DNA of 64,000 nt from assembly GCF_900446255.1 (NCBI RefSeq), contig NZ_UIGI01000002.1, positions 222,934 through 286,933 of the forward strand, in the 5' to 3' direction. Below are positions 3,039-34,591 of the stretch, piece after piece. Position 1 is the first letter of the stretch; every line of letters starts with the position of its first letter. Made by a program: the position numbers and the translations under genes. This DNA comes from Buttiauxella agrestis. Its GTDB lineage: Bacteria > Pseudomonadota > Gammaproteobacteria > Enterobacterales > Enterobacteriaceae. The notes beneath the pieces were generated by a model. It had not been told where the DNA came from. It ran no database searches and was given only the letters and a program-made list of their open reading frames with translations.

Positions 3039-3071
3039 TGTCTACTAATGGTCAACATCCATTTGTAGACA
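3039..3071. promoter_or_regulatory. 33-bp dyad: two facing copies of the GTCC-N6-GGAC-type motif
   Basis: The left arm TGTCTACTAATGG and the right arm CCATTTGTAGACA are inverted repeats matching at 12 of 13 positions, separated by 7 bases. Each arm contains one copy of the 14-bp motif found elsewhere in the window (3040-3053, and 3057-3070 read on the minus strand). It lies about 105-135 bp before the start codon of the truncated regulator at 3175. It is probably an operator; the protein that binds it is not known. Confidence 0.6.
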
Positions 3072-3174
3072 TGGCATTTCACACAAATTTCTCCTATTAT
3101 ATTAATTGATATTGATCAGTGCGTTTTTAATAGAGACTCCCAGTCTATCAGCTAACAATAACAGCTCTTTAAAG

Positions 3175-3281
3175 ATGAAAAAGAAACTTGATGAGAGTTT
3201 TTTTATCTTTGGCGCAAAACCGTTCGAATCGCTTAAGCAGTTAATTGAAGTTTGTCGCCCATATGGTAAATGTGTTGATAG
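3175..3281 (+). pseudogene. N-terminal fragment of a YaiV/IprA-like winged-helix regulator
   Basis: Starting at ATG 3175, about 36 codons are homologous to the beginning of the intact regulator at 28931-29575: both carry KPFES followed by a helix and a ...EVCRPYGK / ...DVCSPHGT segment. The frame is then cut by the terminus of an IS3-type element (GATCCTACCCACG) at about 3282. All of the cyclic-nucleotide-binding-like and DNA-binding parts are lost, so it is non-functional. It is a second, dead paralogue of the same regulator in the window. Confidence 0.75.
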
Positions 3282-3457
3282 GATCCTACCCACGTAATGT
3301 GGACACGGCCCTAAGCGAGGTTCTGGTTTTCAAATTGTTCGGGACTGAGACCGCCACAGGTACTGTGGCGGCGCCACCGATTGTAATCACACTCGATATA
3401 ATTAAACACCGTCGTCCGCATGATTTCCCGGCTGATAAATCGTTGCCCGTGGATATC
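3282..3457 (-). mobile_element. Remnant (3' end) of an IS3-family element
   Basis: This stretch is nearly identical to the left ends of the IS3 copies at 9671 and 29891: it begins GATCCTACCCACGTAATGTG and encodes, on the minus strand, the end of OrfB (NYIECDYN..., CGG...SEQFE...). Homology stops near GTGGATA at about 3457, where the rest of the element is missing. It is the third and shortest copy of this element in the window. Confidence 0.8.
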
Positions 3458-3523
3458 CAAGTCTAGTAGCATCACATCTCTCCATTAATCATCATTACAG
3501 GGCCTGATATTACCATTTGCATG

Positions 3524-3531
3524 CCTTCATC
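3524..3531. repeat. 8-bp target-site duplication of IS66 copy 1 (left)
   Basis: CCTTCATC directly before the IS66 end GTAAGCG and again at 5975-5982 directly after the other end CGCTTAC. IS66-family elements make 8-bp duplications, so the insertion has not been rearranged since. Confidence 0.92.
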
Positions 3532-3568
3532 GTAAGCGTATGCCGAGAACCGTATTGACGAAGATAAG

Positions 3569-5108
3569 TTATTCAGCGGGCAGGACTGCGCGCCATGGCA
3601 ACAGTTCACCAACCCGGTTTACCGGCCAGTCAGCTATAACATCAAGCACATGGTGAAGGTAACGTTCCGGATCGATTCCGTTCAGTTTGCACGTCCCTAT
3701 CAGGCTGTACAGCAACGCTCCGCGCTCACCACCATGGTCAGAGCCGAAGAACAGGTAGTTTTTACGACCCAGACTGACCATCCGCAGAGCATTCTCCGCG
3801 ATGTTGTTATCCGCTTCAGCCCAGCCGTCGTCTGCGTAGTACGTCAACGCTTGCCACTGGTTCAGTGCATAGGTGAACGCCTTTGCCAGTTCTGAGTGTC
3901 GGGACAGGGTTTTCACCTTTTCACGCAGCCAGTTTTCCAGTGATTTAAGAAGCGCTTTCGTTTTCAACTGGCGTTCGGCAAGCCGCTGTTCTGCTGGCAT
4001 TCCCCTGATATCCGCTTCGATGGCATACAACTCGCCGATCCGTTTCAGTGCTTCATCTGTGAGCGCTGAGGGAGTGCGAACGTGAACATCATGGATTTTA
4101 CGCCGGGCATGGGCCCAGCAGGCTGCTTCCTTTATATGACCTTCCCGGTAGAGTTCATTGAAGCCTGCATAGGCATCCGCCTGCAGCACACCGCTGAAGC
4201 CGGCAAGATGGGCCTGCGGGTGGATGCCTTTTCTGTCCGGGCTGTACACGAACCACACCGCCGGGGCCAGCGAAGAACCCGCGTTACGGTCGTCGCGAAC
4301 GTACGTCCATAAGCGCCCGGTCTTCGTTTTTTTGTTGCCCGGCAGCAGGACCGGGACCGGCGTATCATCAGCATGAAGTTTGCCATCGGTCAGTACATAG
4401 TGCTGAAGGGCTTCGTCCAGTGGTGACAGCAGGCGACAACACGCATCCACCCAACCCGACAGTACAGAACGGCTCAACATCACACCCTGGCGGGCATAGA
4501 TCTCCGACTGGTGATACAACGGTGTGTGTTCCGCATACTTTGACGCCAGTACACGGGCCAGCAGTCCCGGTCCGGCGATACCCCGCTCGATGGGCCGTGA
4601 AGGCGCCGGAGCCTGAACGATACGGTCGCACTTCGTGCAGGCGTGTTTTTCGCGCACTGTGCGGATAACCCGGAAGGCGCTGCGCATCAGCTCCAGTTGT
4701 TCGGCTGTATCCTCACCAAGGTAGCTCAGCGCCCCCCCCACAGTCCTGGCAACAGGGCTCTGCCGGTAGCAGGCGCTTTTCATCACGGGGGAGTGATTCC
4801 GGGAAGGGTTTACGTGTGCGGGTCTGGCGCAGAGGGCGCTGTACCGCCGGGTCATCCACCCGGCCGGTAAGGGTATCGCTTTCCTGCTGAAGCCGGTTCA
4901 GGTCGGCTTCCATCTGTGCGATACGGCGGGATATTTTTTCGGAGCGGCTACCGAAGTTCATCCGGCGGAGCTTATCCAGCTGTGCCTGCAGCTTGTCGAT
5001 TTCGCGTTCACGGTCCGCCAGCTTTTCGAGCAGGACACGGTTCAGCGCTTCCTGTTCGGCAAGAAGACGTTTCAGTTCATCGATGTCATCGGGAAGCGGG
5101 CTGTTCAT
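3569..5108 (-). pseudogene. tnpC: IS66 transposase TnpC, frameshifted
   Basis: The first part (5108 to about 4715) encodes the Leu-zipper-like coiled coil (LKRLLAEQEALNRVLLEKLAD) and the start of the zinc-binding region (CCQDCGG). The second part (to 3569) encodes the rest of the zinc region (CTKCD), the DDE catalytic domain ([23 protein letters not shown]) and the C-terminal IS66 domain (NNIAENALR...LLPWRAVLPAE). The two are in different frames and meet at the homopolymer of eight C (eight G in the coding strand) at 4732-4739. Restoring one frame there gives a normal TnpC of about 510 residues. Either a mutation or slippage at the tract is possible. Confidence 0.9.
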
Positions 5109-5156
5109 CCGGGGTATTTTACCAGGCTCATTCGCCCACGACCAGGATAAAGAGGT

Positions 5157-5504
5157 TTACAGCATAGTCAGGGATGTCAGCAGTCTTTTAGGCTGCCGCC
5201 AGTCGATGCCCTCGAGGAGCATCGCCAGCTGTGCCGGGGTGAGGAAGACTTTGCCGTCGCGGGCCGATGGCCAGGCGAAGCGCCCGCGCTCCAGCCGTTT
5301 CGTCAACAGGCATAGCCCGTCGCCAGTTGACCAGAGGAGTTTCACCTGACTGCCACTTCGGCCGCGGAAGATAAAAACGTGACCCGACATCGGATCGTCT
5401 TTCAGCGCGGTCTGCACCTTTGCGGCCAGCCCGTTGAAGCCGTTTCTCATGTCGGTGATGCCGGCGACCAGCCAGATTTTCGTGCCTGACGGTAGCGGGA
5501 TCAC
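5157..5504 (-). CDS. tnpB: IS66 accessory protein TnpB
   Basis: 115 residues with the family hallmarks GTKIWLVAGITDMRNGFNGL near the N-terminus, HVFIFRGRSGSQVKLLWST in the middle and RFAWP near the C-terminus. It starts with GTG at 5504 and overlaps the tnpA stop codon (GTGA), implying translational coupling. TnpB is required, with an unclear role, for transposition of IS66-type elements. It is intact. Confidence 0.92.
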   Translation of the reverse strand: MIPLPSGTKIWLVAGITDMRNGFNGLAAKVQTALKDDPMSGHVFIFRGRSGSQVKLLWSTGDGLCLLTKRLERGRFAWPSARDGKVFLTPAQLAMLLEGIDWRQPKRLLTSLTML

Positions 5505-6660: not shown

Positions 6661-6672
6661 AAGCAGCAAGGA

Positions 6673-8615: not shown

Positions 8616-8685
8616 GTCCACTATTGGACTATCACTGATAATGATTTATTAGTTACACTACTTCAATAGAAGTCCAATAATGGAT
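8616..8685. promoter_or_regulatory. Pair of 14-bp dyad motifs with no gene left downstream
   Basis: GTCCACTATTGGAC at 8616-8629 (perfect GTCC/GGAC arms) and GTCCAATAATGGAT at 8672-8685 lie 56 bp apart, start to start; TCC(A)CTATTGGACT and AGTCCAATAATGGA also form an inverted pair. This resembles the upstream region of an adhesin or regulator gene, but the sequence to the right holds only a hexamer repeat and then the IS1, so the gene it served is probably gone. Confidence 0.55.
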
Positions 8686-11164: not shown

Positions 11165-11178
11165 GTCCTTTAATGGAC
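11165..11178. promoter_or_regulatory. 14-bp dyad motif GTCCTTTAATGGAC upstream of fimbrial operon 1
   Basis: Perfect GTCC/GGAC arms around six A/T bases, 98 bp before the start codon of the major pilin gene. It belongs to the set of similar sites at 3039, 8616, 8672, 28572, 29725, 31223 and 34578. Confidence 0.6.
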
Positions 11179-11276: not shown

Positions 11277-11831
11277 ATGTTCGGAACTTGGAAAACTAGT
11301 GTTTTGGGTGCTGCGGTATTGGTTGCAATGTCAGGTTCAGCAATGGCGGCAGGAACCGCATCAGTACAGGGTGGTAATGTTCACTTCACCGGTACAGTTA
11401 TTGATGCTGCATGTTCAGTCGCTATGGGTGATGCGGGGAGCAATGTAGAAGTGGATATGGGCCAGGTTCGTTCAGCCAAATTCACAGCTGTAGATATGGT
11501 TGCCAACCAGAAAGTCCCATTCACTATTACCCTGGCTGACTGCGATACCACTGTTTCTGCTAATGCGCAGGTGACGTTTAATGGCAATGGCGTAGCAGGC
11601 AAGACTAGCGTGCTGGCTAACGGTGCAGGCCCTGGTTCTGCAGCAGGCGTGGGCATCCAGATTTATGACAACACCGGTGCCACCCTGAACCTGGGCGTCG
11701 CGTCTGCCAAAACCGCTTTAATCAATGGCAATAACACTCTGCATTTCAGTGCTGACTACATCTCTACTGCCGCTGCCGTTGTTTCAGGTTCAGTTGACGC
11801 CACTGCAACCTTCACCATGACATATTCCTGA
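11277..11831 (+). CDS. Fimbrial major subunit (type 1-like pilin)
   Basis: 184 residues with a Sec signal peptide cleaved after GSAMA (about residue 24). The mature pilin has the conserved disulfide cysteines in VIDAACSVAMG and TLADCDTT. It ends with the alternating beta strand TFTMTYS, whose penultimate Tyr is the usual chaperone and donor-strand contact. It is the first gene of operon 1 and is followed by a strong hairpin (11851-11872), which fits the high expression expected of the shaft subunit. AAAGGA stands seven bases before the ATG. The sequence is intact. Confidence 0.93.
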   Translation: MFGTWKTSVLGAAVLVAMSGSAMAAGTASVQGGNVHFTGTVIDAACSVAMGDAGSNVEVDMGQVRSAKFTAVDMVANQKVPFTITLADCDTTVSANAQVTFNGNGVAGKTSVLANGAGPGSAAGVGIQIYDNTGATLNLGVASAKTALINGNNTLHFSADYISTAAAVVSGSVDATATFTMTYS

Positions 11832-11850
11832 TCCCTGTTGGGTTTCAGCC

Positions 11851-11872
11851 GCTCGCCTGATTTCAGGCGAGC
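11851..11872. terminator. Hairpin after the major pilin gene (attenuator or mRNA stabiliser)
   Basis: GCTCGCCTGA and TCAGGCGAGC form a perfect 10-bp GC-rich stem with a 2-base loop, 20 bases after the pilin stop codon. No T-run follows, so it is more likely a 3' stabilising or partial-termination structure that keeps the downstream genes at lower level. Confidence 0.75.
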
Positions 11873-11898
11873 ATTACTGAACCTGTATCGCTACGGAA

Positions 11899-12468
11899 AT
11901 GAATAAAATGACTATGAGCAACCGCCTCCCACCTGCGTTTTTTTTACTGCTGTGTAGCGGTTTAACGTTGATGTTTTCTCCGGCTAACGCCGCAACTGTG
12001 GTAACGGTGGCGGGTGGGCAGGCACATTTCCGGGGGGCCGTGATGGACTCAGCCTGCGTGGTCGCACTCGGTGATACCAACGCAGAAGTGCAGATGGGAC
12101 AAGTGCGGAGAGCAGAGCTGTCGAGCGTCGGGCAATGGGCCGACCCGGTAGCATTTACTCTGACGCTGACAGACTGCGACACCTCCGTAAGCCAGGCTGC
12201 GGGTATTGCTTTTCAGGGCAATGCCGACCCGCAAGATCCGATGGTATTAGGGATGGATAATGGCCCCGGCTCCGCTGTGGGCGTGGGTCTTGGCATCTAC
12301 GATGAAAAATCCAACCTGGTGGTGCCCAACAGCGCACCCCGCTCTTTCTCAACGCTTATCGACGGCCTGAATGTACTGCATTTTATGGCGAAATATCGCG
12401 CCACTCGCGAAACCGTGGTTTCCGGTGATGCCAGCGTAACGGCCAGTTTCATCGTGCTGTATCAGTAA
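11899..12468 (+). CDS. Fimbrial subunit, major-pilin paralogue
   Basis: 189 residues, with a signal peptide ending near SPANA (about residue 31). It resembles the preceding major subunit along its length: VTVAGGQAHFRGAVMDSACVVALGD versus the corresponding VIDAACSVAMG segment, MGQVRRAELSS, LTDCDTSVS, and GPGSAVGVGLGIYD. Two disulfide cysteines are present and it ends FIVLYQ. It is probably a minor shaft or adaptor subunit that arose by duplication. A start at the next ATG (11908, MTMSN) is possible; the ATG at 11899 is used here. Confidence 0.9.
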   Translation: MNKMTMSNRLPPAFFLLLCSGLTLMFSPANAATVVTVAGGQAHFRGAVMDSACVVALGDTNAEVQMGQVRRAELSSVGQWADPVAFTLTLTDCDTSVSQAAGIAFQGNADPQDPMVLGMDNGPGSAVGVGLGIYDEKSNLVVPNSAPRSFSTLIDGLNVLHFMAKYRATRETVVSGDASVTASFIVLYQ

Positions 12469-12522
12469 ACCCCATTCCCTCACCGCCAGTCATAATGCTT
12501 TCTACGTTTTAACGAGGTTATT

Positions 12523-13227
12523 GTGTTATTCAAAAATTCGCTCAAACGAAATGCCCTGCTTTCGCTGGCTTTTCTGCCTTTATTTATTAGCGCTGCCTCT
12601 TTTGCTGGCGGTGTATCCCTTGGCGGAACGCGTTTAATTTACCCGACTGGAAATAGCCAGGTGTCAATGCCGGTCAATAACAGCGATGATAAAGCTATAT
12701 TTCTGGTGCAGTCCTGGGTGGAAGATGACAATGGCGTGAAAACCGAAGATTTTGTTATCACCCCGCCGTTATTTGTTATTCAACCACAAAAAGAAAACAC
12801 CTTGCGTGTGATGTATGTCGGCAGCAAAGTTTTGCCCACTGACCGCGAAAGTGTTTACTGGCTGAATGTGAAAGCCATTCCGTCTGCCAGCTCAAAAATA
12901 AAGAATAAAAATGTATTGCAGCTAGCGATTCTTAGCCGGATAAAATTATTTGTTCGGCCTGATAACCTGCCGTTGAAATCAGCAGAAGCCCCGCAAAAAT
13001 TGCGCTTTCATCGCAATGGCGAACAACTGACGATTAATAACCCCACGCCTTATTACATCACGCTGGTGCAATTAAAAGCGGGTGACACAAAATTACCTAA
13101 CACCATGGTCGCACCACAAACGAAAGCCTCTGTCTCTATTCCTGGCAACGCCCAGGGGGCAATCACTTATCAGACCGTCAGTGATTTTGGTGCCAACTCC
13201 GAAACACAAAAAAGTGTGATGGAGTAA
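12523..13227 (+). CDS. Periplasmic fimbrial chaperone (PapD/FimC family)
   Basis: 234 residues starting with GTG and a signal peptide ending at SFAGG (about residue 28). The mature protein starts VSLGGTRLIYP, with the conserved Arg that anchors subunit C-termini. It has ITPPLFVIQP, then DRESVYWLNVKAIP, the SRIKLFVRP strand with the second anchor residue (Lys), and NPTPYYITL in domain 2. The F1-G1 loop is short, so it belongs to the FGS class. It caps pilins in the periplasm and delivers them to the usher encoded next. A second chaperone closes the operon at 18016. Confidence 0.94.
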   Translation: MLFKNSLKRNALLSLAFLPLFISAASFAGGVSLGGTRLIYPTGNSQVSMPVNNSDDKAIFLVQSWVEDDNGVKTEDFVITPPLFVIQPQKENTLRVMYVGSKVLPTDRESVYWLNVKAIPSASSKIKNKNVLQLAILSRIKLFVRPDNLPLKSAEAPQKLRFHRNGEQLTINNPTPYYITLVQLKAGDTKLPNTMVAPQTKASVSIPGNAQGAITYQTVSDFGANSETQKSVME

Positions 13228-13233
13228 TCAGCA

Positions 13234-15852
13234 ATGATCCGGAGAATGGATGCAACGCTAAACCCTATCGCACAAAGCATGATGAGTACGAGCAATCATT
13301 CGTGCATCCTGGTACTCCTGACTTTGGCATTTTCACCCTGCGTGATGGCGGATAACTATTTTAATCCGGCTTTTTTATCTGGCGACGCTTCGGCGGTTGC
13401 TGATTTATCACGTTATGAAAAAGGCAACGGTCAGGCACCAGGCAAATATCGCGTAGAGGTTTATCTCAACGACACCTATATCTCAATGGAAGATATCGAG
13501 TTTATTGCGCCCAAAGAGAAAGATGGCAATGTGACTGCCTGCCTGACAAAAAAACGATTAGAGCAATTAGGCCTGGCACTCAACGCCTTCCCGGCATTGG
13601 AAAAACTCTCCGCCGAGAGTTGTGTGCCGTTAGCCGATGCCATTCCTGGCTCACGGGCCGACTTTGATTTTGAAAAGCAGCGCCTGGATATCAGCTTGCC
13701 GCAGGCTTCGCTCAAACAAAGCGCTCGCGGCTATATTCCGCCAGAACAGTGGGATGAAGGAATTAATGCGTTATTAACCAACTATGCATTTACCGGCAGC
13801 AATAGCTGGGGCGACAGCAGCGAAAACAGCTATTACCTGAACTTGCAAAACACGCTCAATGTTGGGCCCTGGCGGTTACATGATTATTCTACCGGCAGCT
13901 ACACGACGAGCGATGATGGCGAAGCGACGCATGAATGGCAGCACGTCAGCACTTATCTGCAACGCACCGTGATCCCCCTCAAAGGTGAATTGACCCTCGG
14001 CGACAGCTACACCCCTTCTGACGTGTTCGACAGCATCGGGTTTCGCGGGGCGCAATTGGCCTCTGATGACAACATGCTGCCCGACAGCCTGCGCGGCTTT
14101 GCACCCACCATTCGTGGAATTGCGAAAAGTAACGCCAAAGTGTCGATTAAACAAAACGGCTACGTCATCTATCAAAGCTATGTGCCGCCGGGGGCGTTTG
14201 AAATTAACGATCTGTTCCCGACCTCATCAAGTGGCGACCTGGACGTGGAAATCACCGAAACGGACGGCAGTAAAAGCAGTTATACCGTGCCCTATTCCGC
14301 CGTGCCGGTATTACAACGCGAAGGCCGGGTGAAATACTCTGTGACCGTGGGCCAGTACCACACCAACAACAGCGATCAGGGTGACGAAAAGCTGGCCCAG
14401 GGTACGCTCATATGGGGGTTGCCGCACGGCATCACTGCCTATGGTGGCATCCAGTATGCAGAAAACTACGCCGCAGAAGCGCTCGGTGCTGGCCTGAATC
14501 TGGGCGAGATCGGCGCGCTTTCGATGGATATTACTCAGGCCAACAGCACTCTGCCGGATGACAGCACCCACAGCGGGCAGTCACTGCGTTTCCTGTACGC
14601 CAAGTCGATGAACTCCACCGGCACTAACTTCCAATTGCTCGGCTACCGTTATTCTACCCAGGGCTTTTATACTCTGGATGAGACCACCTATAACCGGATG
14701 GATGGCTACACGTATAACGATGACGGCAGCGAAAAAGATTTCACCCCGGACTGGACCGATTACTACAACCTCTATTACAGCAAGCGCGGCAAAATTCAAC
14801 TTAACGTCTCGCAGCAAATCGGCAGCTACGGCTCCGTATTTGTCACCGGCAGCCAGCAAAGTTACTGGAACACCAGTGACACCGATACCCTGATACAAGT
14901 AGGTTACAGCGGCAACTGGCACGACATCAATTTCAACCTGACCTACAGCTATAACCAGGCGCAGGGCGAACCGGACGCCGACAAGCAATTCGCATTGAGC
15001 ATGTCTTTGCCGTTGGGTAAATGGTTGTCTGCGGGCGGTAATAACAGCGACTCGTACAGTTCACCTAATAATGCTTATGCTACCTATAACAACAATACCG
15101 ATTCCCACGGCAAGATGACGCAAAGTGCCGGGATTAGCGGCACGCTGCTTAAAGACAACAACCTGAATTACAGCGTACAGCAGGGTTACGGCAACCACGG
15201 CGACGGAGCCAACGGCTCGGCCTCACTCGATTATCAAGGCACTTACGGCAACAGCAACGTCGGCTACAACTACAGCGGCGGCTATCAGCAGGTGAATTAT
15301 GGTATTAGCGGCGGCATGGTGCTGCACAGAAATGGCCTTACGTTAAGCCAGCCACTTGGCAGCACCAATGTGCTGATCCGTGCGCCAGGTGCTGACGGAG
15401 TGGATGTCGAAAACAACACTGGCGTGAAAACCGACTGGCGTGGTTACGCGGTGATCCCGTATGCCACCACTTATCGTCAAAACCGCATTGCGCTTAATAC
15501 CGATACGCTGGGCGATAAAATTGATTTAGATAACGCCGTCGTTAATGTGGTGCCGACCGAAGGTGCGCTGGTCCGGGCAGATTTCAAAGCCCACGCCGGA
15601 CTACGTGCTCTCATCACCCTAATGCACGGCCAAAAACCGGTGCCCTTTGGTGCCACTGTCGGTCGTGGCGATAGCGAAAGCAACACCATTGTCGGCGATG
15701 GTGGGCAAGTCTATTTAATGGGCGTGCCATTAACCGGTGATTTAACCGTGCAATGGGGCAGCGAGGCCCACGAAAAATGCAAAGTACATTATCAGTTACC
15801 GGAAAGTGAAATGAAAAAACCGATCAGCCAGTTTACGGCGGAGTGCAAATAA
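13234..15852 (+). CDS. Outer-membrane fimbrial usher
   Basis: 872 residues with GGAG nine bases before the ATG. The signal peptide ends near CVMA, followed by the N-terminal domain (DNYFNPAFLSGD, VEVYLND). The 24-strand barrel and plug carry typical usher stretches (FRGAQLASDDNMLPDSLRGF, PTIRGIAKSNAKV, FEINDLFPTSSSGDL). The C-terminal plug-like domains follow (NNTGVKTDWRGYAVIPY, PFGATV). Length is in the usual 800-880 range. It secretes and assembles the pilins. It follows the chaperone by 6 bp and overlaps the adhesin start (TAATG). Confidence 0.95.
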   Translation: MIRRMDATLNPIAQSMMSTSNHSCILVLLTLAFSPCVMADNYFNPAFLSGDASAVADLSRYEKGNGQAPGKYRVEVYLNDTYISMEDIEFIAPKEKDGNVTACLTKKRLEQLGLALNAFPALEKLSAESCVPLADAIPGSRADFDFEKQRLDISLPQASLKQSARGYIPPEQWDEGINALLTNYAFTGSNSWGDSSENSYYLNLQNTLNVGPWRLHDYSTGSYTTSDDGEATHEWQHVSTYLQRTVIPLKGELTLGDSYTPSDVFDSIGFRGAQLASDDNMLPDSLRGFAPTIRGIAKSNAKVSIKQNGYVIYQSYVPPGAFEINDLFPTSSSGDLDVEITETDGSKSSYTVPYSAVPVLQREGRVKYSVTVGQYHTNNSDQGDEKLAQGTLIWGLPHGITAYGGIQYAENYAAEALGAGLNLGEIGALSMDITQANSTLPDDSTHSGQSLRFLYAKSMNSTGTNFQLLGYRYSTQGFYTLDETTYNRMDGYTYNDDGSEKDFTPDWTDYYNLYYSKRGKIQLNVSQQIGSYGSVFVTGSQQSYWNTSDTDTLIQVGYSGNWHDINFNLTYSYNQAQGEPDADKQFALSMSLPLGKWLSAGGNNSDSYSSPNNAYATYNNNTDSHGKMTQSAGISGTLLKDNNLNYSVQQGYGNHGDGANGSASLDYQGTYGNSNVGYNYSGGYQQVNYGISGGMVLHRNGLTLSQPLGSTNVLIRAPGADGVDVENNTGVKTDWRGYAVIPYATTYRQNRIALNTDTLGDKIDLDNAVVNVVPTEGALVRADFKAHAGLRALITLMHGQKPVPFGATVGRGDSESNTIVGDGGQVYLMGVPLTGDLTVQWGSEAHEKCKVHYQLPESEMKKPISQFTAECK

Positions 15853-16958
15853 TGAAATGTCATCTCACCCTTGTAACGCTGCTGCGAAAAGGTCTGCTGA
15901 TCATCGGCTTATTGCTGGGTGTCACGAACATCGCGCATGCCTATACCGGATGGTGCACGCCGGAGGGTAGCGCTCAACAGTACCATTATAATTTCGGCAA
16001 CATAACCATACTCGACGTCAACAAGAACGTGGGGGGCTTTTTATTTCCTCGGGCATACAATTGGGATTTGGGGGGAACGTATATAGCAACATGTGATTGT
16101 GACCCCGTAGCAGAGAATCTTTCGCCAACTTATTATGATAAATTTTATCGCACTATGTCATCCCTGATGCCGGGGCATACCGACGGCGAGTATCAGTTTT
16201 TCAAAATTAGCGATTACCTTGAAGTTGCAAGTGATATATGGGTGGCTGGGGCTGTAAACTCTTATAAACCTACCCCCTGGACTAATGAAAATAATTTATC
16301 CTCGCTCACAAATGGAGGTAAGAACCCGACTAATCCAGGGGCCTGTAAAGGTTCCCCAAGCGGGTATGGCGCTTTTGGTACGGGGTCAAAAGGCAGAATA
16401 AAGATATATATTGCAAAACCGTTTATCGGCTCTACCCTGGTCAACAATATCAAGCTTCTGGATATCTATGGTTCCGTAACGTCTGGGAGTTTTGGTGGCA
16501 CCCCGATGGCTTCTGTTTATATCAACGGCGTCGTCACCGCCCCGCAGAATTGTGAAATCAACGCCGGACAAATCGTGACCGTCGACTTTGGCCAGATGTG
16601 GGCCGGGGATTTCACCACTAAAGGTCAGCGGCCCACTAACGCCCCCCCGCAAACCGTCAAGGTGCCCATCAAGTGCAATAACATACCCGCCTTTGGGAAC
16701 TTAACTCTGCGCATTCAGAGCGAACCTTCTGCGCAGACGCCGGAGGCAATCAAGACCAATAACCCGGACGTAGGCGTGGAAATCCTCGATGACAGCGGGC
16801 ACCTGCTGTTGCCCAACACCGGTCTGGTACCATTCAGTGTCGATGAAAACTCTGAAGCTACGGTGACGTTTAAAGCAGTGCCGGTCAGCACGACAGGAAA
16901 TACTCCTGCCAGCGGACTTTTCCAGGCTCAGGCCTACATTCGCATCGACTTTGCCTGA
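15852..16958 (+). CDS. Two-domain fimbrial tip adhesin
   Basis: 368 residues from ATG 15852, overlapping the usher stop by one base; an in-frame GTG at 15843 is less likely. The signal peptide ends near NIAHA. Residues about 30-215 form an N-terminal domain with several Cys (WCTPEG, CDCDPV, GACKGS) and little similarity to known lectin domains that I can see. Residues about 220-368 are a pilin domain (APQNCEINAGQIVTVDFGQM, VPIKCNN, and the end YIRIDFA). Twice pilin length and position after the usher mark it as the FimH-type tip adhesin. Receptor specificity cannot be read from sequence. Confidence 0.88.
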   Translation: MKCHLTLVTLLRKGLLIIGLLLGVTNIAHAYTGWCTPEGSAQQYHYNFGNITILDVNKNVGGFLFPRAYNWDLGGTYIATCDCDPVAENLSPTYYDKFYRTMSSLMPGHTDGEYQFFKISDYLEVASDIWVAGAVNSYKPTPWTNENNLSSLTNGGKNPTNPGACKGSPSGYGAFGTGSKGRIKIYIAKPFIGSTLVNNIKLLDIYGSVTSGSFGGTPMASVYINGVVTAPQNCEINAGQIVTVDFGQMWAGDFTTKGQRPTNAPPQTVKVPIKCNNIPAFGNLTLRIQSEPSAQTPEAIKTNNPDVGVEILDDSGHLLLPNTGLVPFSVDENSEATVTFKAVPVSTTGNTPASGLFQAQAYIRIDFA

Positions 16959-16968
16959 GGACAATTAA

Positions 16969-17493
16969 GTGAAGAAAACACTTTTGCTGTTATTGCTCGC
17001 AAGCTGCTCAACGCTTGCCGATTTGGGCCACGTGAACCTGATCATGTCTGGCGAAATAATGAAAGAAAGCTGTGACATTGACGCCAACAATCTGACTCAG
17101 AATGTTGAAATCGGTGATTTTGCCGTGGGTACCTTTAACTCTGTCGGCAGCGTCAGTGCTGACAAAAGCTTTAAAATACTATTAAGTAAATGCTCGCCAG
17201 AAATAAAAACTGCGGGAGTCACCTTTACCGGCACCGCGCAGGCGGGCGGTGACTCCAGCCTGCTGGCGTTGTCCGACACCACTGGGACGGGTAATCTTGC
17301 GCAAGGAGTAGCGGTGCAGTTACTCGACAGTAATAAAATCCCGCTGGCGATAAACAGCCTTAACCCGGTTCGCTACCCAATATCCCCGGGTGATAATACC
17401 CTGAACTTTTCCCTGCGCTATAAAGCCGTTTCGCTACCGGTCGTCGCCGGTAATGCTAATGCAGTGCTTTATTTCAATATGGATTATCAATAA
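16969..17493 (+). CDS. Minor fimbrial subunit
   Basis: 174 residues starting with GTG; a short signal peptide ends near STLA. The pilin domain has disulfide cysteines in IMKESCDIDANN and LLSKCSPE and ends YFNMDYQ. It is a tip fibrillum or adaptor subunit by position, between the adhesin and another minor subunit. Its stop codon overlaps the next start (TAATG), so translation is coupled. Confidence 0.9.
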   Translation: MKKTLLLLLLASCSTLADLGHVNLIMSGEIMKESCDIDANNLTQNVEIGDFAVGTFNSVGSVSADKSFKILLSKCSPEIKTAGVTFTGTAQAGGDSSLLALSDTTGTGNLAQGVAVQLLDSNKIPLAINSLNPVRYPISPGDNTLNFSLRYKAVSLPVVAGNANAVLYFNMDYQ

Positions 17494-18014
17494 TGAAACT
17501 CTTTATTTTTCTCGCCGCACTCGGGATAACGTTGTCCCCTTCACTATGGGCGTATGAAGCCGGTCCCGGAACAATTAATATCACCGGAAAAATTCATAGT
17601 GATACTTGTGTGCTGGACAACAATAATTTACAGGTGGATTTGGGAAATATAAACAGCCACGAATTTAGCCAGAAAGATAAGCAGAGTTTTCCTATCCATT
17701 TTGCCCTCAACCTGACTAACTGTGAGAATGCCGTCAGCGGTGTCAGCGTACAATTTGATGGTACACCTGCAAAGGGAAATCCCGCACTGGTCGCGATTGA
17801 TAACGTCACTGGTGCGGCGACTGGCTTAGGCATCAACATAATGGATGACCAGAAAAATACGATTGCTATTAACAGTGAAAGCCATCAGTACCCCATTATT
17901 TCTGGCGGGGGAAGTAATACGCTGAACTTCTACGCCAGCTATATGACCCTTGGCGATGTAATTACCGCAGGGACTGCTTCGGCCAGCGTCACCTTCACCC
18001 TGACGTATCAATAA
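17493..18014 (+). CDS. Minor fimbrial subunit
   Basis: 173 residues with a signal peptide ending near SLWA. Pilin cysteines lie in IHSDTCVLDNNN and LTNCENAVS. The C-terminal strand is TFTLTYQ. It resembles the preceding minor subunit and is probably its duplicate. The next gene, a chaperone, begins 1 bp after its stop codon. Confidence 0.9.
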   Translation: MKLFIFLAALGITLSPSLWAYEAGPGTINITGKIHSDTCVLDNNNLQVDLGNINSHEFSQKDKQSFPIHFALNLTNCENAVSGVSVQFDGTPAKGNPALVAIDNVTGAATGLGINIMDDQKNTIAINSESHQYPIISGGGSNTLNFYASYMTLGDVITAGTASASVTFTLTYQ

Positions 18015-18015
18015 T

Positions 18016-18681
18016 ATGAAAAAGACGCTTATTTTACTGCCGTGGATCCTCATCACCACTCAGGCGCAAGCTGGAGTTGTGGTGGGTGGCACTCGTTTTG
18101 TATTCCCTGAGCACCAAAACACACTGTCGCTTGAGGTAAAAAACACCGGCAGCCTGCCATTTTTGATCAAAACCCAAATCACAGCAGACAGTGGTGCGGT
18201 GCCGTTTATCGCAACCCCACCATTATTTGCTGTGGAAGCCGGGCATGAAAACGCGGTGCGGATAATTCGTACCGACGGCACTTTACCCGACGACCGCGAA
18301 AGCCTGTTTTATATCAGTATTGCGGCAATTCCTTCCGGCAAACCGCAACCTCACTCTTTACAAATTGCGTTGCGTTCGCGCTTTAAACTGTTCTACCGCC
18401 CGGACGCGCTACAGGCCAATGCCAGAACCGCCTACCAACAGATAGCATGGCACCAGAACGAGAACGGATTAGTTATCAACAACTCCACGCCGTATTACAT
18501 TACGCTGAGTCAGTTGCGCATTAACCAGCGTGATATTCCCATTGTGGAAATGCTGGCACCTTTCGGCCAGGAGCAATTTAATGTCTGTGCGCGTGGTGAA
18601 GTGTGCCAGTTGCAATGGCAAACGCTGGATGACACCGCCAATCTGACCCCGCTTCAACAAGCCCATTTCCCTTCACATTAA
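18016..18681 (+). CDS. Second periplasmic fimbrial chaperone
   Basis: 221 residues; the signal peptide ends at AQAG. The mature N-terminus VVVGGTRFVFPEHQN, TPPLFAVEAGHENAVRII, DRESLFYISIAAIP and SRFKLFYRP carry both subunit-anchoring residues, and NSTPYYITLSQL is the conserved domain-2 motif. A Cys pair near the C-terminus (FNVCARGEVCQLQW) is present, as in some adhesin-dedicated chaperones. It ends the operon. A second chaperone in one operon often serves the tip adhesin or minor subunits, which here are encoded immediately before it. Confidence 0.93.
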   Translation: MKKTLILLPWILITTQAQAGVVVGGTRFVFPEHQNTLSLEVKNTGSLPFLIKTQITADSGAVPFIATPPLFAVEAGHENAVRIIRTDGTLPDDRESLFYISIAAIPSGKPQPHSLQIALRSRFKLFYRPDALQANARTAYQQIAWHQNENGLVINNSTPYYITLSQLRINQRDIPIVEMLAPFGQEQFNVCARGEVCQLQWQTLDDTANLTPLQQAHFPSH

Positions 18682-26026: not shown

Positions 26027-28485
26027 TTAGAATTTCAGTGAGAAACCGGCGTTAACCATGAACGGTGACTCCATTTTATTCGAGTGATTGTACTGTACAC
26101 TGGCACCTACATTCAGGTTTTTAGTGACCTATGCGTTAATACCCGCATCATATATGCCAGTCACGTCAGACATATTATCTTCCAGTCGGTCGTCATTGAC
26201 CTGTACGATATTGTCGTTCACCAGTTCATATGCCACCGCCAGTTTCAGGTACGGTTTGAGCTCAGCAGAGCGAACGTTAATCCTGGTGCCAAGATTTACC
26301 CCGCTTTCTACTACCAGGGAATTCACACTACTGACATCAGCTTTCATGCCATTGGACAAATTATAGTTATCATGGTCGGTAGTAAAACCGGTCACGGCAA
26401 CGTAAGGGGCGACGAACGAGCGGTCATAAGTGAAGTATTTTCCTGCTTCAAGATGCCCCGAGAGTCCATTCTGGTTGTAGTCCCCATCAGCGGCACCACC
26501 GCTGGTCATTGTGGCATTGACCCCATCTTTGAACTTGTTCACTTTCACGATACTGTCGACGTAGTATCCGCTGTTATTCATCCAGCTTAGATAGCCGCCC
26601 GTTGACAATGAATCAACATTGCCCGATCCATCTTTGTCGAAATCGACGTCGCTATTGGTATCACCCACAATACCGCCGACGGTCAGATGGCTATTGGCGA
26701 AGTCTTTGCTGGCATCTGCACCCAACATTACGCCGTTAAGGTTCATATAAAACCCGGCAGCATTATTATTGACGCTTTGCTTATTGCCGATGTAACGCGC
26801 CCACACATTTAAATCATGCGACGTATCGCGAACCGCATCAACACGGTCGCGGACGGTGTGCATTTCCACATCGTTTATGATGGGTTCTGTGACCGCCATC
26901 GACAAAACGGCAGAAGTCGATGGTGTATACGCTGGCGCAGTTTCAGGTGGTGCTGGCGGTGTAGAGCCCGTGGACAAATCCCAGTTACCGTTACCGTTAC
27001 CGTCTGTAACCAGGTGATATTCATAAGTCCCGGCATCCACGACGCTACCTTTATTGGCGAGCTTAAATTCAGCCGTCCCGCCATTTGCCGTGACAACGCG
27101 CAAGGGGTCATCATTGACCGGGCTGACGCCAGAATCGGTGGCATATACATTGAAATTACCACTGTCAGTCCCGGTGATATTAATCGTGCTGCCTTTCATC
27201 TCACCAATACTGGTATTGATATAAAAGTTACCGCTGCCGCTGAGCGTATCTGTGGTTAACGAGCTGTAATTAGTGGGGTCGAGAAAGACGCTGCCACCCT
27301 GCATATCCAGAGAATTAACTTGGTAATTCAGCGAATTGCTGGCACCGTGTGAACCGTCGAAGTAAACATTACCCGCTACAGTGAAATCTGCCGCTGAAAT
27401 GTCTGCATGTGCCCAGACAAAAGTCGTGGCACCGGCATTAGTTATGACATCACCGGTGATGCTGGGTGTAGTATCTTCTGTCGCTTTGCCGTCTACGGCT
27501 TTAATGTTTAACAGGCCATTATTGGTAATGTTATTGGCGTAACTGTCGTCCTCTATGGTCATCGGTCATCGCCCCGGTTGATGTTATCACCGTGTCATCA
27601 AGACTGGACTGATCTCTGCTGTCAACCATGCCTGCAACGGTCATATTATTGATTGCAGAATAACCAGAAAGTTGGGCATAACCGCCTTGCTCAACCAATA
27701 AGTTGTTAGATGTTGATATATTTTCGGTATTTGTATCGGACGATCGGGCGTACCCGGATGAATACCTTCCGCCAACTTTTACAACGGTGTCATTATCCGT
27801 ACTACCGTGATTATCGATTTCGCCATAAACGATACTGTTATTTGCTACGCCCGCCGTTGGGGCAATATTCTGATCTTCTGGGTGGTAATTGGCCTGAACA
27901 ACGAGAGTGCCACCTTGCTGTACTGTGCTTCCTTGGCTGATACCGCCATTTTGAATATTTTGTGTACCACCAGATTCAATAACGGCATTAAAAGATTGCG
28001 CAGTATTTATCTGACCTGGCTCGTTTTGTGAACCTGTGTTAAGCACTCCGCCTGCGCTGAGGTGGGTATCATAATCGGCACCGAAGCGGTGATTTAACAC
28101 GGATCCATAACCGGTGACGACGCCACCGTTGAGGATGTCCATGGTACCTGTGTTAATGGTGATAGTACTGGCGGTGCCGCTAACGAAAAGATCTGCATCC
28201 TGGCTTTTAAGGGCTGAATTATAAATGAGTCCAAGAGAATCGATAGTCTGAGTGCCTCCCTCATTATTCATTCCACTGGTAACTCCGCCAGCATAAATGT
28301 GCTGTGAACCATCGTTAATAATGGAGTTTGTGATTGTGCCATAAACATTTTTGAGTTTGATTGGGATTATCAATTGTCTCATTATTAACAACATTTTCTG
28401 CGGAAATATCTGGGGTGAAACTTGCCTGGGAGTTTGATGCATTAAGAGTCACCAATATCCCGAAAGAAATAAGTTTGATGTTCAT
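26027..28485 (-). pseudogene. AIDA/Ag43-type autotransporter adhesin, broken in three places
   Basis: From ATG 28485 there is a signal peptide (NIKLISFGILVTLNA...SQA), then a passenger of AIDA-type repeats (IYAGGVTSGMNNEGG, LNGGVVTGYGSV, IESGGTQNIQNGG), a linker rich in Pro (TPPAPPETAPAY) and a beta-barrel domain ending in a terminal Phe (GFSLKF). The frame is broken by loss of one A in an A-run near 28350, by a 7-bp tandem duplication GGTCATC GGTCATC at 27557-27570, and by a TAG at 26129-26131, 33 codons before the true end. An intact version would be about 820 residues. A motif site lies 87 bp upstream. Confidence 0.9.
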
Positions 28486-28571: not shown

Positions 28572-28585
28572 GTGCAGAAATGGAC
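28572..28585. promoter_or_regulatory. 14-bp dyad-type motif upstream of the autotransporter
   Basis: GTGCAGAAATGGAC departs from the shared consensus only at position 3 (G for C). It lies 87 bp before the autotransporter start codon, in the same distance range as for the fimbrial operons. Confidence 0.45.
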
Positions 28586-28930: not shown

Positions 28931-29575
28931 TTAATATTTTGCAGGGAAGTTTTTTATTATTCCTTTTAGTTTGCCATTTTGTATTTCAATATAACCACCA
29001 AGACGTAAGTCTGCCAACATTTTCATCACTCCACTTCTGGCAAGATGAGTTCGGGCAAGAATATAATTGCTGACACTAATCTTCTTTCGGCTTTCAATGG
29101 GTAACAGGGCGAGTTCGTGCAACAAGCCACAGACAATTTCATAAGTTGTACGACTTATCATCAAATCCGCAATATAACTTTGATAGTCAATAATATAACG
29201 ATAATAATCAATCAATTCTCTAACCAAACCGTGTTTCGTGACCAGCTCGATAACGGTATCGCGTGGCAATGTTAACACTTTGCTTCCCTTTAACGCGCAG
29301 AAAGTATTAATCTCCTTACGGTAACCTGAAGCCAGTACACCAATGAATGTTGGACCAGAAACGACAGCGTAAAGCAGTTGGTCTGAGTTGCGGAAAATAT
29401 TCATCACCCCTTCAAGAAGCACTATCACAACCTGTTCACCATTATTGCCTGTCAAACTAACGTGGACCATATCTGAATGCGTATCAACAAATGTGCCGTG
29501 AGGGCTGCATACATCAATAAGACGGCGAATGGACTCGAACGGTTTTTCGCCAGGAGTGAATGCTTTATCTTCCAT
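28931..29575 (-). CDS. YaiV/IprA-like winged-helix regulator
   Basis: 214 residues from the ATG at 29575, preceded by AGGGGAG at 6-base spacing (an upstream ATG at 29593 is in frame). Residues about 20-130 resemble a cyclic-nucleotide-binding-type beta barrel (VVIVLLEGVMNIFRNSDQLLYAVVSGPTF, as separate strands) without evident phosphate-binding Arg. The C-terminal part (KKISVSNYILARTHLARSGVMKMLADLRLGGYIEI, residues about 160-200) is a winged helix of the CRP-like type. Such proteins occur next to fimbrial and autotransporter adhesins in enterics and include IprA/YaiV. A truncated paralogue lies at 3175, and both genes have the dyad motif upstream. Confidence 0.8.
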   Translation of the reverse strand: MEDKAFTPGEKPFESIRRLIDVCSPHGTFVDTHSDMVHVSLTGNNGEQVVIVLLEGVMNIFRNSDQLLYAVVSGPTFIGVLASGYRKEINTFCALKGSKVLTLPRDTVIELVTKHGLVRELIDYYRYIIDYQSYIADLMISRTTYEIVCGLLHELALLPIESRKKISVSNYILARTHLARSGVMKMLADLRLGGYIEIQNGKLKGIIKNFPAKY

Positions 29576-29724
29576 GTTATGCTCCCCTTTCATAATGTTT
29601 AAAATCCATCTACAGAGAAAATATAATTAAAGTAACCGTAGTCACCTGTTAACAATATTCAAATCTACGTTGCCGCTAATGACAGTAGAAAAACGGCTTT
29701 GCCAGAATTGAGATTAGCGTTACT

Positions 29725-29738
29725 GTCCAATCATAGAC
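29725..29738. promoter_or_regulatory. 14-bp dyad-type motif upstream of the YaiV/IprA-like gene
   Basis: GTCCAATCATAGAC, 150 bp before the regulator start at 29575. It differs from the perfect dyad by A for G at position 11, as does the site at 34578. If the regulator binds it, the gene would be autoregulated. Confidence 0.5.
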
Positions 29739-31222: not shown

Positions 31223-31236
31223 GTCCTAAATTGGAC
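31223..31236. promoter_or_regulatory. 14-bp dyad motif GTCCTAAATTGGAC upstream of the dead pilin gene
   Basis: Perfect GTCC/GGAC arms, located roughly 110-140 bp before the remains of a pilin gene. Survival of the site beside a decayed gene suggests this was once the start of a third fimbrial operon. Confidence 0.58.
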
Positions 31237-31360
31237 GTTGCGAGCAATATTTCTGCACACTAGACTGCGTGCAGATTACGGAGTTCAGTGTTATCTGAGT
31301 TAAGTGCACATCCCGATACTTTTCAATATATTACTTAATGGGAGTAGTGAACTATTCCTT

Positions 31361-31871
31361 TTACCCTGCAGGTTATCTCCACCGGTGCTTACTCTGTCGA
31401 TGCTGGCGTGAACGTCAGCGCAAATATTGTGGCTCCGGCATGCTCAGTTTCTGTTGGTTCTGTTAGTCAGAACGTCGAGCTGGGCAAAGGGCGCGCCTTA
31501 TCAAGGCTGGGGATGCAACGGCATGGACCTCGTTTAGCGATGATTTCGAGGCGTGCCCGGAAACGGTGACGACGGTGACCGTGACCGTTACATTAACCGG
31601 GTCACTAGAACCCGACGTGCCGGAGCACTACATCAATACCGGGACCACTACACATGTCGCTATTGAAGTGATGGATGTTGCGAGCACACAAGCAATGAGC
31701 AATGGGAAAACTTTAACCATAGGCATCAATACCGAACATAAAACGTCCCTAGCATTAAAAAGCAGGATGATCACACCAAATGGTAAGGCTACTTCAGGTA
31801 GCGTTATTGGATTAACGCAGCTTTTAAATAAAGGCGCTGCAATTACCTTAGAACGAATTCTCAGCAACTAG
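31361..31871 (+). pseudogene. Fimbrial subunit remnant
   Basis: One frame gives STGAYSVDAGVNVSANIVAPACSVSVGS and QNVELGKG, the N-terminal strands of a pilin with its first Cys. After a frame change near 31500 another frame continues FSDDFEACPETVTTVTVTVTLTGS, then EHYINTGTTTHVAIEV and the end at 31871. The signal peptide and start codon are not evident. It is probably the first gene of a lost operon. Confidence 0.75.
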
Positions 31872-31881
31872 GATTAACGTC

Positions 31882-32217
31882 ATGAAAAGCCTCAGACAGG
31901 AACTGGTGCAGATAAACAAAAACAAACAAGGTTTAAAAAATAAAAAACTGGATTTAAATTTACTGCCTGTATTTGTTAAAATGTTCAATGATTACAGTAT
32001 GATGAAGAAATATGATGTTATAGATATGTCATTTTTTTCCACCTCATGTCCTTTGAATAAATTAAGGGATTATTTTGATGATCCTCTTTTTATCCGAAAA
32101 GGCCGGAGTCTGATTGCGACATCATTCGCGGAAGAGCTTTATGCACTGATCAATAAAGAGTTAACAATACTATTGGTTAATATTCAGAATGTCTCCAGAT
32201 CCTCCGAAATGGAATGA
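31882..32217 (+). pseudogene. LysR-type regulator, N-terminal fragment
   Basis: 111 residues aligning with the N-terminus of the LysR gene at 6673: LDLNLLPVFVKMF for FDFNLLFIFETIF, LNKLRDYFDDPLFIRKGRSLIAT for LNKLRTYFSDPLFIRKGQGLVPT. The recognition helix is degraded (DMSFFSTSCP in place of ESSPSSISQS) and the frame stops just after the DNA-binding region. It is a decayed paralogue from the same family branch. Confidence 0.75.
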
Positions 32218-32273
32218 TGATCTATTTGAATTAAATGTATTAGCTACGAAACTTTTGTTTTTTTGGTTAGGGT

Positions 32274-32606
32274 ATGAAGGTTGTGCTAATAAAAGATAGC
32301 AACTCTTCTTTTAAAGAATGCGTTAAATTAATTATCAACAATTACTTTTACAGCACTAACGATAGGCGTTTAATTACATTTACGGAAAATTTTAATGAAG
32401 AGAGTGTTAAGCATGCTGATGTTATAATATTAAACATCCCTGCAGGTACATACTATCTGTGCTTTCCTTTGTTGAAACTCAGAAAAAAAGATAGTATTTT
32501 AATCATTGTTATTGATGAAATTGTAGAGCATAAGCTTAAGGAGTTACTTCATTGTTTTGAAAAAAAACTACTTTCATTTCTCGTCATTGTAGTGTTAATA
32601 AATTGA
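32274..32606 (+). pseudogene. Possible receiver-like N-terminus of a LuxR/FimW-type regulator
   Basis: 110 residues beginning MKVVLIKDSNSSFKECVKLIINNYF, followed by HADVIILNIPAGTYY and SILIIVIDEI. This alternation of beta strands and helices fits the receiver-like domain of small LuxR-type fimbrial regulators. The expected C-terminal GerE helix-turn-helix is absent, so either the gene is truncated or the call is wrong. It is AT-rich. Confidence 0.45.
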
Positions 32607-32821
32607 CTCACTACTTAGATAAGAAAAGTACCCGCTGGGTTTCCCCCCCTAAGTAAGCCATGCCACTCTTGTAAGCGACGAGTATTAACCCCACTTCAAA
32701 AAGATATATGCCTCGGCCTTTCTCAGTGCTTTTCATAGCATTATATTGCTGCTCATTATGATATTTCATACAAAAAAGTTAGTTTTTACAAAACGCTGAT
32801 TAAAAAAGTTCAAATTATCTA

Positions 32822-33975
32822 AATAGCTGCGCCTATTACCGCTCCACTTTTGTTAACCCGTGTTGACTGCCGGGGAAAGGTGAAGCCGATTTCATAAACT
32901 GTCTGACATTTTTCAGTAACTGCCACATTGTCCGGCAGCGATGATTACGCGTGATTGTTTCATGTAATGCCAGCCATAAAATCTCTATCCTGTTCAACCA
33001 CGGTGAGTAAACTGGCTGATAAATAACAATAAATTTTGGATTCTCCTTCAATCATTTCAGCGTCTTTTTGTTCTTGTGGATGATATGGTTATCAACAATT
33101 AGCGTGAGCGTTTTTGCACTGCGATATGTGCTTCTCAACTGACTTAACATCCTGATAAGTAAACCTGAGTCTTTACTTGTGCCATTCACATAATCCACTC
33201 TTCCTGTCCCGGCATGCAGCACTCCTGCAAGGTAATGCTTTTGGTTCTGTCCTGGCGTTGGGATGCGTTTTTGCTGCCCTTTTTTCTGCCAGTCAGCGCC
33301 AATTTTTGGATTCAAATCGATATCCACTTCATCCTCGTAAAATACGGGATGATCGGCACAGTTTTTTTCTAACGCTGCACTCGTCGCTACCAGTTTTTCC
33401 TCTTTGTGAGGATCACGAATATGGAGTGTCGGAGCCGCTCTGTGCCAGACAATCCCAGCCCCCGGTAACCAGCGACGAAGCGAGCCTGGATGTAACGTCG
33501 CATTAAATAGTTTATTAATTTCAATCGTTAATATCTCAGTACTCCATCGAGAACGCAGATAGCCGAAATCTTGTGGTGAACGTTGAACCAGTAAATCGAG
33601 CATGCGTAGCATTGCTTCCATAGGCTACTTTCTTTGACGTCCGGGAGGCAGACTTTTCAGGCCTTCAGCCCCAAATAAAGTGAACCAGTTAATCCAGCGC
33701 CCGACGGAAGAACGGGCTGCGCAAAGAGTTTTCGCTACGTGAGTCAAAGATTCGCCACGATGTAGCATCAACATTGCCATGAGGCGTCTGGCGTGGTTTT
33801 TATCCGCAGTTTTGTGCACGGCTTTGTGCATATGGCGTCGTTCATTACGAGGTATAGGTGCTATGATCGGCATAACTCAGTCCGGTTAGTGAGGGTTTGT
33901 GATGTTTGGCGATTGATCAGATCGCTCAAACCGGATTGAGTTCCCTTCAGTGATCTACTATTAGGCGCAGCTATT
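32822..33975 (-). mobile_element. IS630-family element, copy 2
   Basis: 1154 bp, ends AATAGCTGCG and CGCAGCTATT, TA on both sides (32820-32821, 33976-33977). It is nearly identical to copy 1 and in the same orientation. The transposase frame 32836-33873 carries the shared TGA (just before 33052) and an extra TAG near 33622-33624 where copy 1 has Trp. The copies bound a 13-kb segment with the chitinase/lux genes and the autotransporter. Confidence 0.93.
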
Positions 33976-33997
33976 TAGACGTGAGTTTCCTACCTGC

Positions 33998-34550
33998 GTA
34001 AGCGGCACATGTAGACCGTCTGTTGGTCTCCATCCGGTTCGGAGAAAATAATGTCCTTCATTTATGATCTGCACCCGCAGTGCGGGTGTATTCTGAGTGA
34101 CGCGCAGTGCGAACTTTTGCCTTTATCGAGCGCCTTGATTTGAGTATAAATTTCAACCAATCACCGATGAGGAAGCGCTATCAGGGACGATTCTGTCACG
34201 ATGATAAAGAGGGCAGTTTTCGCGCATGCGCAAAGATATTGACCATGACTTCTTACCAACAGACGATGATTAGCATTGAAAATGGCACTACTCAGCTTCC
34301 TGCTGCCTTTATTTGCAATGTGTTCGGGATCCATCGCTGTAGCTATCGGTACTGGCTAAGCCGACCGCAGAAACCTGATGCAAAACAAATCGTTATACTG
34401 AGCCTGGTTCGTGAAGTTCATCATACCAGTAATGGCTCTGCGCGGGCCCGGAGCATTGCCGATATGGTCAGCGCAAAAGGTGTTCCGTTGAGTCGCTGGC
34501 GGGCCAGTAAGATAATGAAAGAGCTGAATACAAATAATTTATCTAGCTAA
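33998..34550 (+). mobile_element. IS3-like remnant with truncated OrfB
   Basis: It begins with the 66-bp IS-end sequence shared with 1719-1785. The frame 34245-34550 reads MTSYQQTMISIENG, then FGIHRCSYRYWLSRPQKPD, VREVHHTSNGSARARSIADM and PLSRWRASKIMKELN. This is the N-terminal region of an IS3-family OrfB (HTH_21 type) before the integrase core. It ends at 34550 without the core. Confidence 0.72.
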
Positions 34551-34577
34551 ATGATGGAAATACAATTTCTATTTACC

Positions 34578-34591
34578 GTCCATATTTAGAC
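34578..34591. promoter_or_regulatory. 14-bp dyad-type motif upstream of fimbrial operon 2
   Basis: GTCCATATTTAGAC, 156 bp before the first gene of operon 2. It has the same A at position 11 as the site at 29725. It is the only such site in the 197-bp upstream region. Confidence 0.5.

Follow-up and report, generated by a model that had tools for sequence, protein, structure and literature searches.

FNR, which carries N-terminal cysteines for an iron-sulphur cluster, reads the site TTGAT-N4-ATCAA, and activator sites of the CRP/FNR type classically centre at -41.5 or -61.5. Fimbria-linked regulators such as PapB/PapX and FimZ are encoded beside a fimbrial operon and belong to other protein families, and the LysR box is a T-N11-A motif within an odd-length dyad. 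PMC12502779 cites IprA (YaiV), a protein of Escherichia and Salmonella, for an influence on fim in S. Typhimurium, and the IprA/YaiV passages available from PMC11408624 and PMC12502779 do not state where it binds. No paper naming PF15977 or HTH_46 was found, and the literature matches listed, with partial coverage, describe no IprA/YaiV binding site. The window analysed here, a whole stretch of 64,000 nucleotides from Buttiauxella agrestis, contains a 14-bp dyad in front of several adhesin and regulator genes. This dyad motif is real, and we consider it likely to be the operator of CRP/FNR-superfamily regulators of the PF15977 (HTH_46) family, represented in the window by the intact protein P0001 and a truncated second copy. 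A known protein superfamily appears to be paired with a previously undescribed operator.

With its arms extended, the dyad reads GTCCA-N4-TGGAC (5-4-5), with GTCYA-N4-TRGAC as the relaxed form. Nine matches with at most one mismatch to the strict form occur in the window (8616, 8672, 11165, 28572, 29725, 31223, 34578, 44201 and 61859), whereas 100 order-2 Markov sequences yield a mean of 1.17, a 95th percentile of 3 and a maximum of 5. Positions 1-43000 hold seven of these matches, all seven outside open reading frames (ORFs) of at least 100 aa, although such ORFs cover 77% of that span. Each of 59 other half-site permutations gives at most two such non-ORF matches there (median 0); this comparison is partly circular, the motif having been picked from the same sites, and shows unusual placement rather than providing an independent test. 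All ten positions named in the earlier note, eight as good and two as weak, do carry the pattern. Its grading holds less evenly: two weak sites were recognised, but 28572 has a single mismatch, as does 8672, while 3040 and 3057 have two each. The second weak position, 7746, has three mismatches, falls outside both the one-mismatch and the permutation-test lists, and was dropped as a site. Perfect GTCC-N6-GGAC arms occur four times in 64 kb, at the three sites originally quoted (8616, 11165 and 31223) and at 44201. Both 44201 and 61859 lie inside ORFs of a type VI secretion system (T6SS) region, look chance-like and were rejected as sites.

The same half-sites emerge from a blind search that excluded the window. 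Specifically, the 400 bp upstream of 90 HTH_46 ORFs were searched for all 5-base half-sites at 13 spacings (13,312 dyads), and GTCTA-N4 ranked first (14 against 1.2 expected) and GTCCA-N4 seventh (9 against 0.75), effect sizes that are inflated by base-composition expectations, by the inclusion of related sequences and by the fact that a site already noticed had guided the choice of 7 of the 20 genomes. One of 91 upstream regions was removed as redundant before this search, and three of the 91 ORFs, shorter than 150 aa, were removed before tree building. A GGTGT-N5 dyad from the search was rejected, since in nine of ten cases it falls where the coding sequence of an ehaB-like gene ends, ahead of an iprA-like gene. 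On the tree, the upstream site is present in 16 of 89 HTH_46 genes, the window's included, and is clustered, requiring 7 changes against a shuffled mean of 15, with none of 500 shuffles as low. Across the 20 genomes, 29 of 96 canonical sites (15 loci) lie within 600 bp of one of 77 HTH_46 genes, against 0.14 expected; for the 13 genomes chosen on other grounds than a site, the corresponding figures are 13 of 51 (5 loci), 40 HTH_46 genes and 0.06 expected. Moreover, 53 of the 91 HTH_46 ORFs lie within 6 kb of an usher, chaperone, pilin or autotransporter homologue, a linkage found for 15 of 17 ORFs with a canonical dyad within 600 bp and for 38 of 74 without one (Fisher p 0.006).

P0001 is the best candidate binder of the dyad. 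It matches the PF15977 winged helix with 82.5 bits, above the Pfam gathering cut-off of 29.3, and belongs to that family. A profile of 57 P0001 relatives matches CRP (1i6x) over most of its length (E 1.4e-5, positions 24-195 of 211), and by sequence P0001 fits the CRP/FNR superfamily, with a nucleotide-binding-type N-terminal domain and a C-terminal helix-turn-helix in CRP order. It does not belong to the FNR subfamily, as its first 90 residues contain only C29 and no N-terminal cysteine cluster. The dyad shares with the FNR site its 14-bp length, two 5-bp arms and 4-bp gap, while its half-site letters and the PF15977 C-terminal domain differ. No match to P0001 was found in PHROGs, and a search of one genome-contig set returned no relative. 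Among 119 genomes sampled from the bacterial family, 39 encode PF15977 proteins, 36 of these with a score over the cut-off. HTH_46 is a little-studied CRP-like family, often found beside adhesin genes, and relatives in other bacteria suggest that the dyad is its binding site.

The window sites and the genes behind them are arranged as follows.

3040..3053, plus strand: dyad GTCTACTAATGGTC, the first member of a close pair, with a truncated HTH_46 gene downstream
3057..3070, minus strand: dyad GTCTACAAATGGAT (minus-strand reading), second of the close pair
3175..3285, plus strand: N-terminal remnant of another HTH_46-like regulator, with insertion-sequence-like DNA behind it
8616..8629, plus strand: dyad GTCCACTATTGGAC, no mismatch, no gene found downstream
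8672..8685, plus strand: dyad GTCCAATAATGGAT, 56 bp from the 8616 dyad
11165..11178, plus strand: dyad GTCCTTTAATGGAC, 98 bp upstream of where the first fimbrial operon's pilin starts
11277..18681, plus strand: first chaperone-usher fimbrial operon, assignments covering the ORFs ahead of its last three
26129..28442, minus strand: autotransporter adhesin, possibly frameshifted, two overlapping ORFs in different frames
28572..28585, minus strand: dyad GTCCATTTCTGCAC (minus-strand reading), one mismatch, 129 bp before the autotransporter ORF
28931..29593, minus strand: P0001, intact HTH_46 (IprA-like) regulator, CRP/FNR superfamily by sequence, candidate binder
29725..29738, minus strand: dyad GTCTATGATTGGAC (minus-strand reading), 131 bp before P0001, predicted autoregulatory site
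31223..31236, plus strand: dyad GTCCTAAATTGGAC, before a broken gene
31345..31871, plus strand: broken gene, not open in one frame, pieces unrecognised by Pfam
34578..34591, plus strand: dyad GTCCATATTTAGAC, 156 bp upstream of the second fimbrial operon, which starts with a chaperone
34748..40705, plus strand: second chaperone-usher operon, part of its ORFs tested

Compared with 89 HTH_46 proteins, the fragment at 3175..3285 is closest to P0001 (12 of 19 residues, E 6e-7); it is too short for a domain test. Downstream of the 8616 and 8672 dyads, no plus-strand ORF of at least 80 aa appears until 11277. There the first fimbrial operon begins, with pilins at 11277-11831 and 11899-12468 and a tip-like protein at 15843-16958 (all PF00419), a chaperone at 12523-13227 (PF00345) and an usher at 13234-15852; the second comprises a PF00345 chaperone (34748-35452), a DUF1120 protein (36237-36950) and an usher (37026-39494). 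Of the autotransporter ORFs, 27531-28442 gives a sub-threshold match to an AIDA stalk and 26129-27562 contains the pertactin and beta domains. The gene behind 31223 had been read as a dead pilin, an identity that could not be confirmed, as its two pieces have no Pfam match over cut-off (best PF00114, E 0.24). Dense insertion-sequence DNA fills 3290-10770 and 29890-33870, including by Pfam an IS66 transposase (3569-4855) and an IS3-type integrase core (9692-10603), with more IS66-, IS1- and IS3-like remains visible by eye. Matches of the insertion sequences and of window proteins indicate an origin in Enterobacterales. ORF 31882-32217, apparently truncated, gives matches below every cut-off to the N-terminal portion of regulators of the LysR type (CitR/YbeF/LeuO-like). 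A type VI secretion cluster occupies 43618-61274, with TssF over and a TssM-like protein below cut-off.

In the mechanism proposed here, an HTH_46 protein would bind as a dimer across the two 5-bp arms, in the way that FNR occupies its 5-4-5 site, some 40-60 bp upstream of the adhesin transcription starts as placed by predicted promoters. The regulator may also bind upstream of its own gene and thereby exert self-control; a single HTH_46 protein would serve all sites, and the fimbriae and autotransporters of the strain would be co-ordinated as one regulon. Among 72 oriented sequences, nine from the window and with relatives counted several times, -10-like matches are most frequent 32-36 bp past the dyad, with 16 of the 72 at 34 bp against 0-8 per position outside 32-37 bp. 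Judged from these predicted -10 elements, the dyad centre would lie near -53.5 (about -59.5 at ehaB), compared with the classical CRP/FNR positions of -41.5 and -61.5, the transcription starts here being predicted ones. As the direction of control, activation is tentatively preferred to repression. As with PapB/PapX and FimZ, a regulator gene stands beside a fimbrial operon; unlike in those systems, one dyad recurs also at autotransporters and inverse autotransporters.

Related arrangements are found in other genera. Among 33 plasmid records the best P0001 match lies in Rahnella sikkimica (locus L001), where an HTH_46 gene is followed by autotransporter-like genes and dyads stand before the regulator (GTCTAGTTTTGGAC), the next gene (GTCCAAAAGTGGAC) and an autotransporter (GTCCAAAAATGGAC), the latter two without mismatch. 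The first lies 89 bp before the HTH_46 ORF itself (104 bp before its annotated start). A second Rahnella genome (L133) has dyads at three places matching L001. In the first scan, which took in eight plasmid-record loci, L003 and L004 had no match at one mismatch; GTCCAGCTCTGGAC in L006/L007 was rejected because it lies within a chaperone gene. Since a 10-row P0001 alignment was too diverse, a scan of 57 genome loci used the fimbrial usher as query, and a dyad with at most one mismatch precedes the fimbrial operon in five of them (L009, L019, L027, L031 and L054) and in none of the other 52. In four Kluyvera usher loci the dyad lies farther on, before an ORF of HTH_46 length (HTH_46 shown in two); the remaining usher-locus matches fall within ORFs, except in L016, where the distance to the following ORF is about 900 bp. 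Another arrangement, seen in six genomes belonging to four genera, is a tandem HTH_46 pair with a fimbrial operon facing it; the spacer between them has otherwise diverged but keeps three dyads. Among P0001 relatives from 392 genomes, six loci (L308, L310, L312, L317, L318 and L319) have an inverse autotransporter after the regulator (PF11924 in six of six tested); four carry a dyad of weighted score at most 1 between the two genes, and the other two a weaker ATCCA-N4-TGGAT.

Several results weigh against an HTH_46 operator, or against its generality. In the window, the class with exactly two mismatches shows no excess (18 against 18.9 expected), and genome-wide the pattern is no commoner than its reversed control. 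Seven genomes of the 20-genome count were included on account of a site already noticed in them; among the remaining 13, G010, G014 and G016 had a prior one-mismatch usher-locus match, without which three loci remain, and G014 alone supplies two of the five. Among the four inverse-autotransporter loci with a dyad, L310 and L312 are near copies. A wider draw of HTH_46 neighbourhoods, 60 regions taken in near E-value order with some places skipped and the hand-picked L299 and L300 removed before the tests, gave a canonical non-ORF dyad in only 2 of 58, equalled by the best two of the other 119 permuted patterns. Upstream of 65 HTH_46 ORFs from this draw, GTCTA-N4 ranked 770 (3 against 0.8 expected) and GTCCA-N4 1125 (2 against 0.4) of 5,807 dyads, and the weighted motif ranked 14 of 120 permutations. 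Eight of the 20 nearest P0001 matches (E <= 1e-25, from 15 of 392 genomes) carry a dyad of weighted score at most 1, a count that permuted controls approach or equal (8 for a near-synonym, then 7; median 2), and the two closest relatives (L301 and L302; 50% identity; divergent from acnB) have none. Finally, sites without an HTH_46 neighbour, as at leuO and an EAL gene, could mean that the reader is another protein.

Both wider-draw matches lie upstream of the HTH_46 gene, as the model predicts, and one faces a pilin; a usher, chaperone, pilin or autotransporter homologue is found within 3 kb in 27 of the 58 regions. A nearest-neighbour test (2 of 6 against 1 of 61) was discounted as support, L299, one of the two, being hand-picked. 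Because the wider draw and the nearest relatives give weak results, the operator seems limited to certain clades, the window's included, and other HTH_46 proteins probably read a different site. The frequency check against coding sequence and whole genomes that the earlier note had called for is favourable within the window and around HTH_46 genes in the 20 genomes, and not for HTH_46 genes at large.

The alternative that survives best has the dyad as operator of another regulator (the island's LysR proteins, LeuO or a global factor), with the HTH_46 genes merely its targets; we regard this as rather unlikely. At least 56 canonical sites in 55 loci lie away from HTH_46 genes, 25 intergenic and 31 in ORFs, the latter treated as chance, in a tally restricted to strict sites for G002, G012, G016, G019, G020 and part of G005. 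In five genomes (L194, L196, L197, L207 and L210) the leuA-leuO gap contains GTCTA-N4-TGGAC about 430-450 bp upstream of leuO, the gene families having been tested in L194, L197 and L207 and assigned by ORF length and alignment in the other two; the leuO of one E. coli genome lacks such a dyad. In three more genomes a dyad stands 64-79 bp before a MASE1-EAL gene, cyclic di-GMP phosphodiesterase-like (L193:4066, L198:4017 and L213:4049), and in two it lies 102 and 380 bp before tssB (VipA) of T6SS clusters (L202:4050 and L209:3993). No HTH_46 gene was found beside the leuO, EAL and tssB dyads, a point in favour of this alternative; those at leuO and the EAL gene form conserved islands. Other intergenic dyads precede fimbrial genes (L203 and L214), GbpA (L212) and several genes unlinked to adhesion, such as hexR/zwf and an Hsp20 gene. 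The LysR-type ORFs present in the window also speak for it. Against this, HTH_46 is the common neighbour across Rahnella, Lelliottia, Leclercia, Enterobacter, Klebsiella, Franconibacter and Kluyvera loci, and a LysR-type reader in particular is weakened because the dyad is even-length, with T-N10-A rather than T-N11-A, and no LysR gene adjoins the L001 dyads. For the same reason of dyad form, and given the poor match at 7746 assigned to it, the inclusion of the LysR gene in the regulon is unsupported; for the rest of the proposal, an operator shared by the adhesins and the YaiV/IprA-like (HTH_46) genes, independent genomes provide good support.

That the dyads are non-functional relics, spread with insertion sequences or duplicated adhesin cassettes, is very improbable: the island does hold several insertion-sequence genes or their remains, and an intact gene is missing downstream of some sites, but spacer letters and flanks differ among the window sites and the dyads persist as islands in otherwise diverged spacers. 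Chance combined with by-eye selection in AT-rich intergenic spacers fits the flat two-mismatch class, the genome-wide parity with the reversed control and the weak wider draw, yet there is little room for it when window counts exceed all 100 simulations and all 59 permutations and the dyad recurs at comparable promoters elsewhere, in islands conserved in other genera.

With an HTH_46 operator preferred, a broader picture may be drawn tentatively, as a possibility we would not yet favour: HTH_46 proteins would be a widespread family of CRP-like regulators of adhesin cassettes, moving together with chaperone-usher fimbriae, autotransporters and inverse autotransporters, and several of their clades would share one FNR-like operator code, so that unlinked adhesins, and in some genomes the leuO, EAL-gene and T6SS promoters, join one regulon when islands meet. 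Horizontally gained adhesin clusters would, if this is true, fall under one control on landing in one genome. More immediately, a candidate operator makes PF15977 proteins testable regulators with predictable targets, and the E. coli ehaB-iprA pair makes the model testable in a laboratory strain.

IprA itself resembles P0001 in several respects: it aligns with it full-length (68.9 bits over 17-220, NF008810), its gene lies beside the autotransporter gene ehaB/yaiT, and the promoter region there contains a GTCC-N6-GGAC dyad. P0001 nevertheless falls far below the curated cut-off of the IprA equivalog (359 bits) and is not a member. The ehaB dyad also differs in form: of 10 aligned loci (L166 and L135 lying outside this alignment), 7 carry GTCYR-N4-YGGAC followed by a conserved promoter-like pair, and three have mismatches. 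Four E. coli alleles read GTCCACATTCGGAC or GTCCGCAATCGGAC, the arms being kept while the inside varies. Upstream of the iprA-clade gene itself, no site better than two weighted mismatches was found in 12 loci. In an MG1655-type E. coli (L237:5011-9178), an IS3 element interrupts the ehaB/yaiT-like autotransporter next to iprA, with the promoter dyad intact. Related palindromes, GACCAAGATTGGTC in L129 and GACCAGGACTGGTC in L135, lie 118 and 154 bp before iprA-like regulators and are possibly a variant site of that clade.

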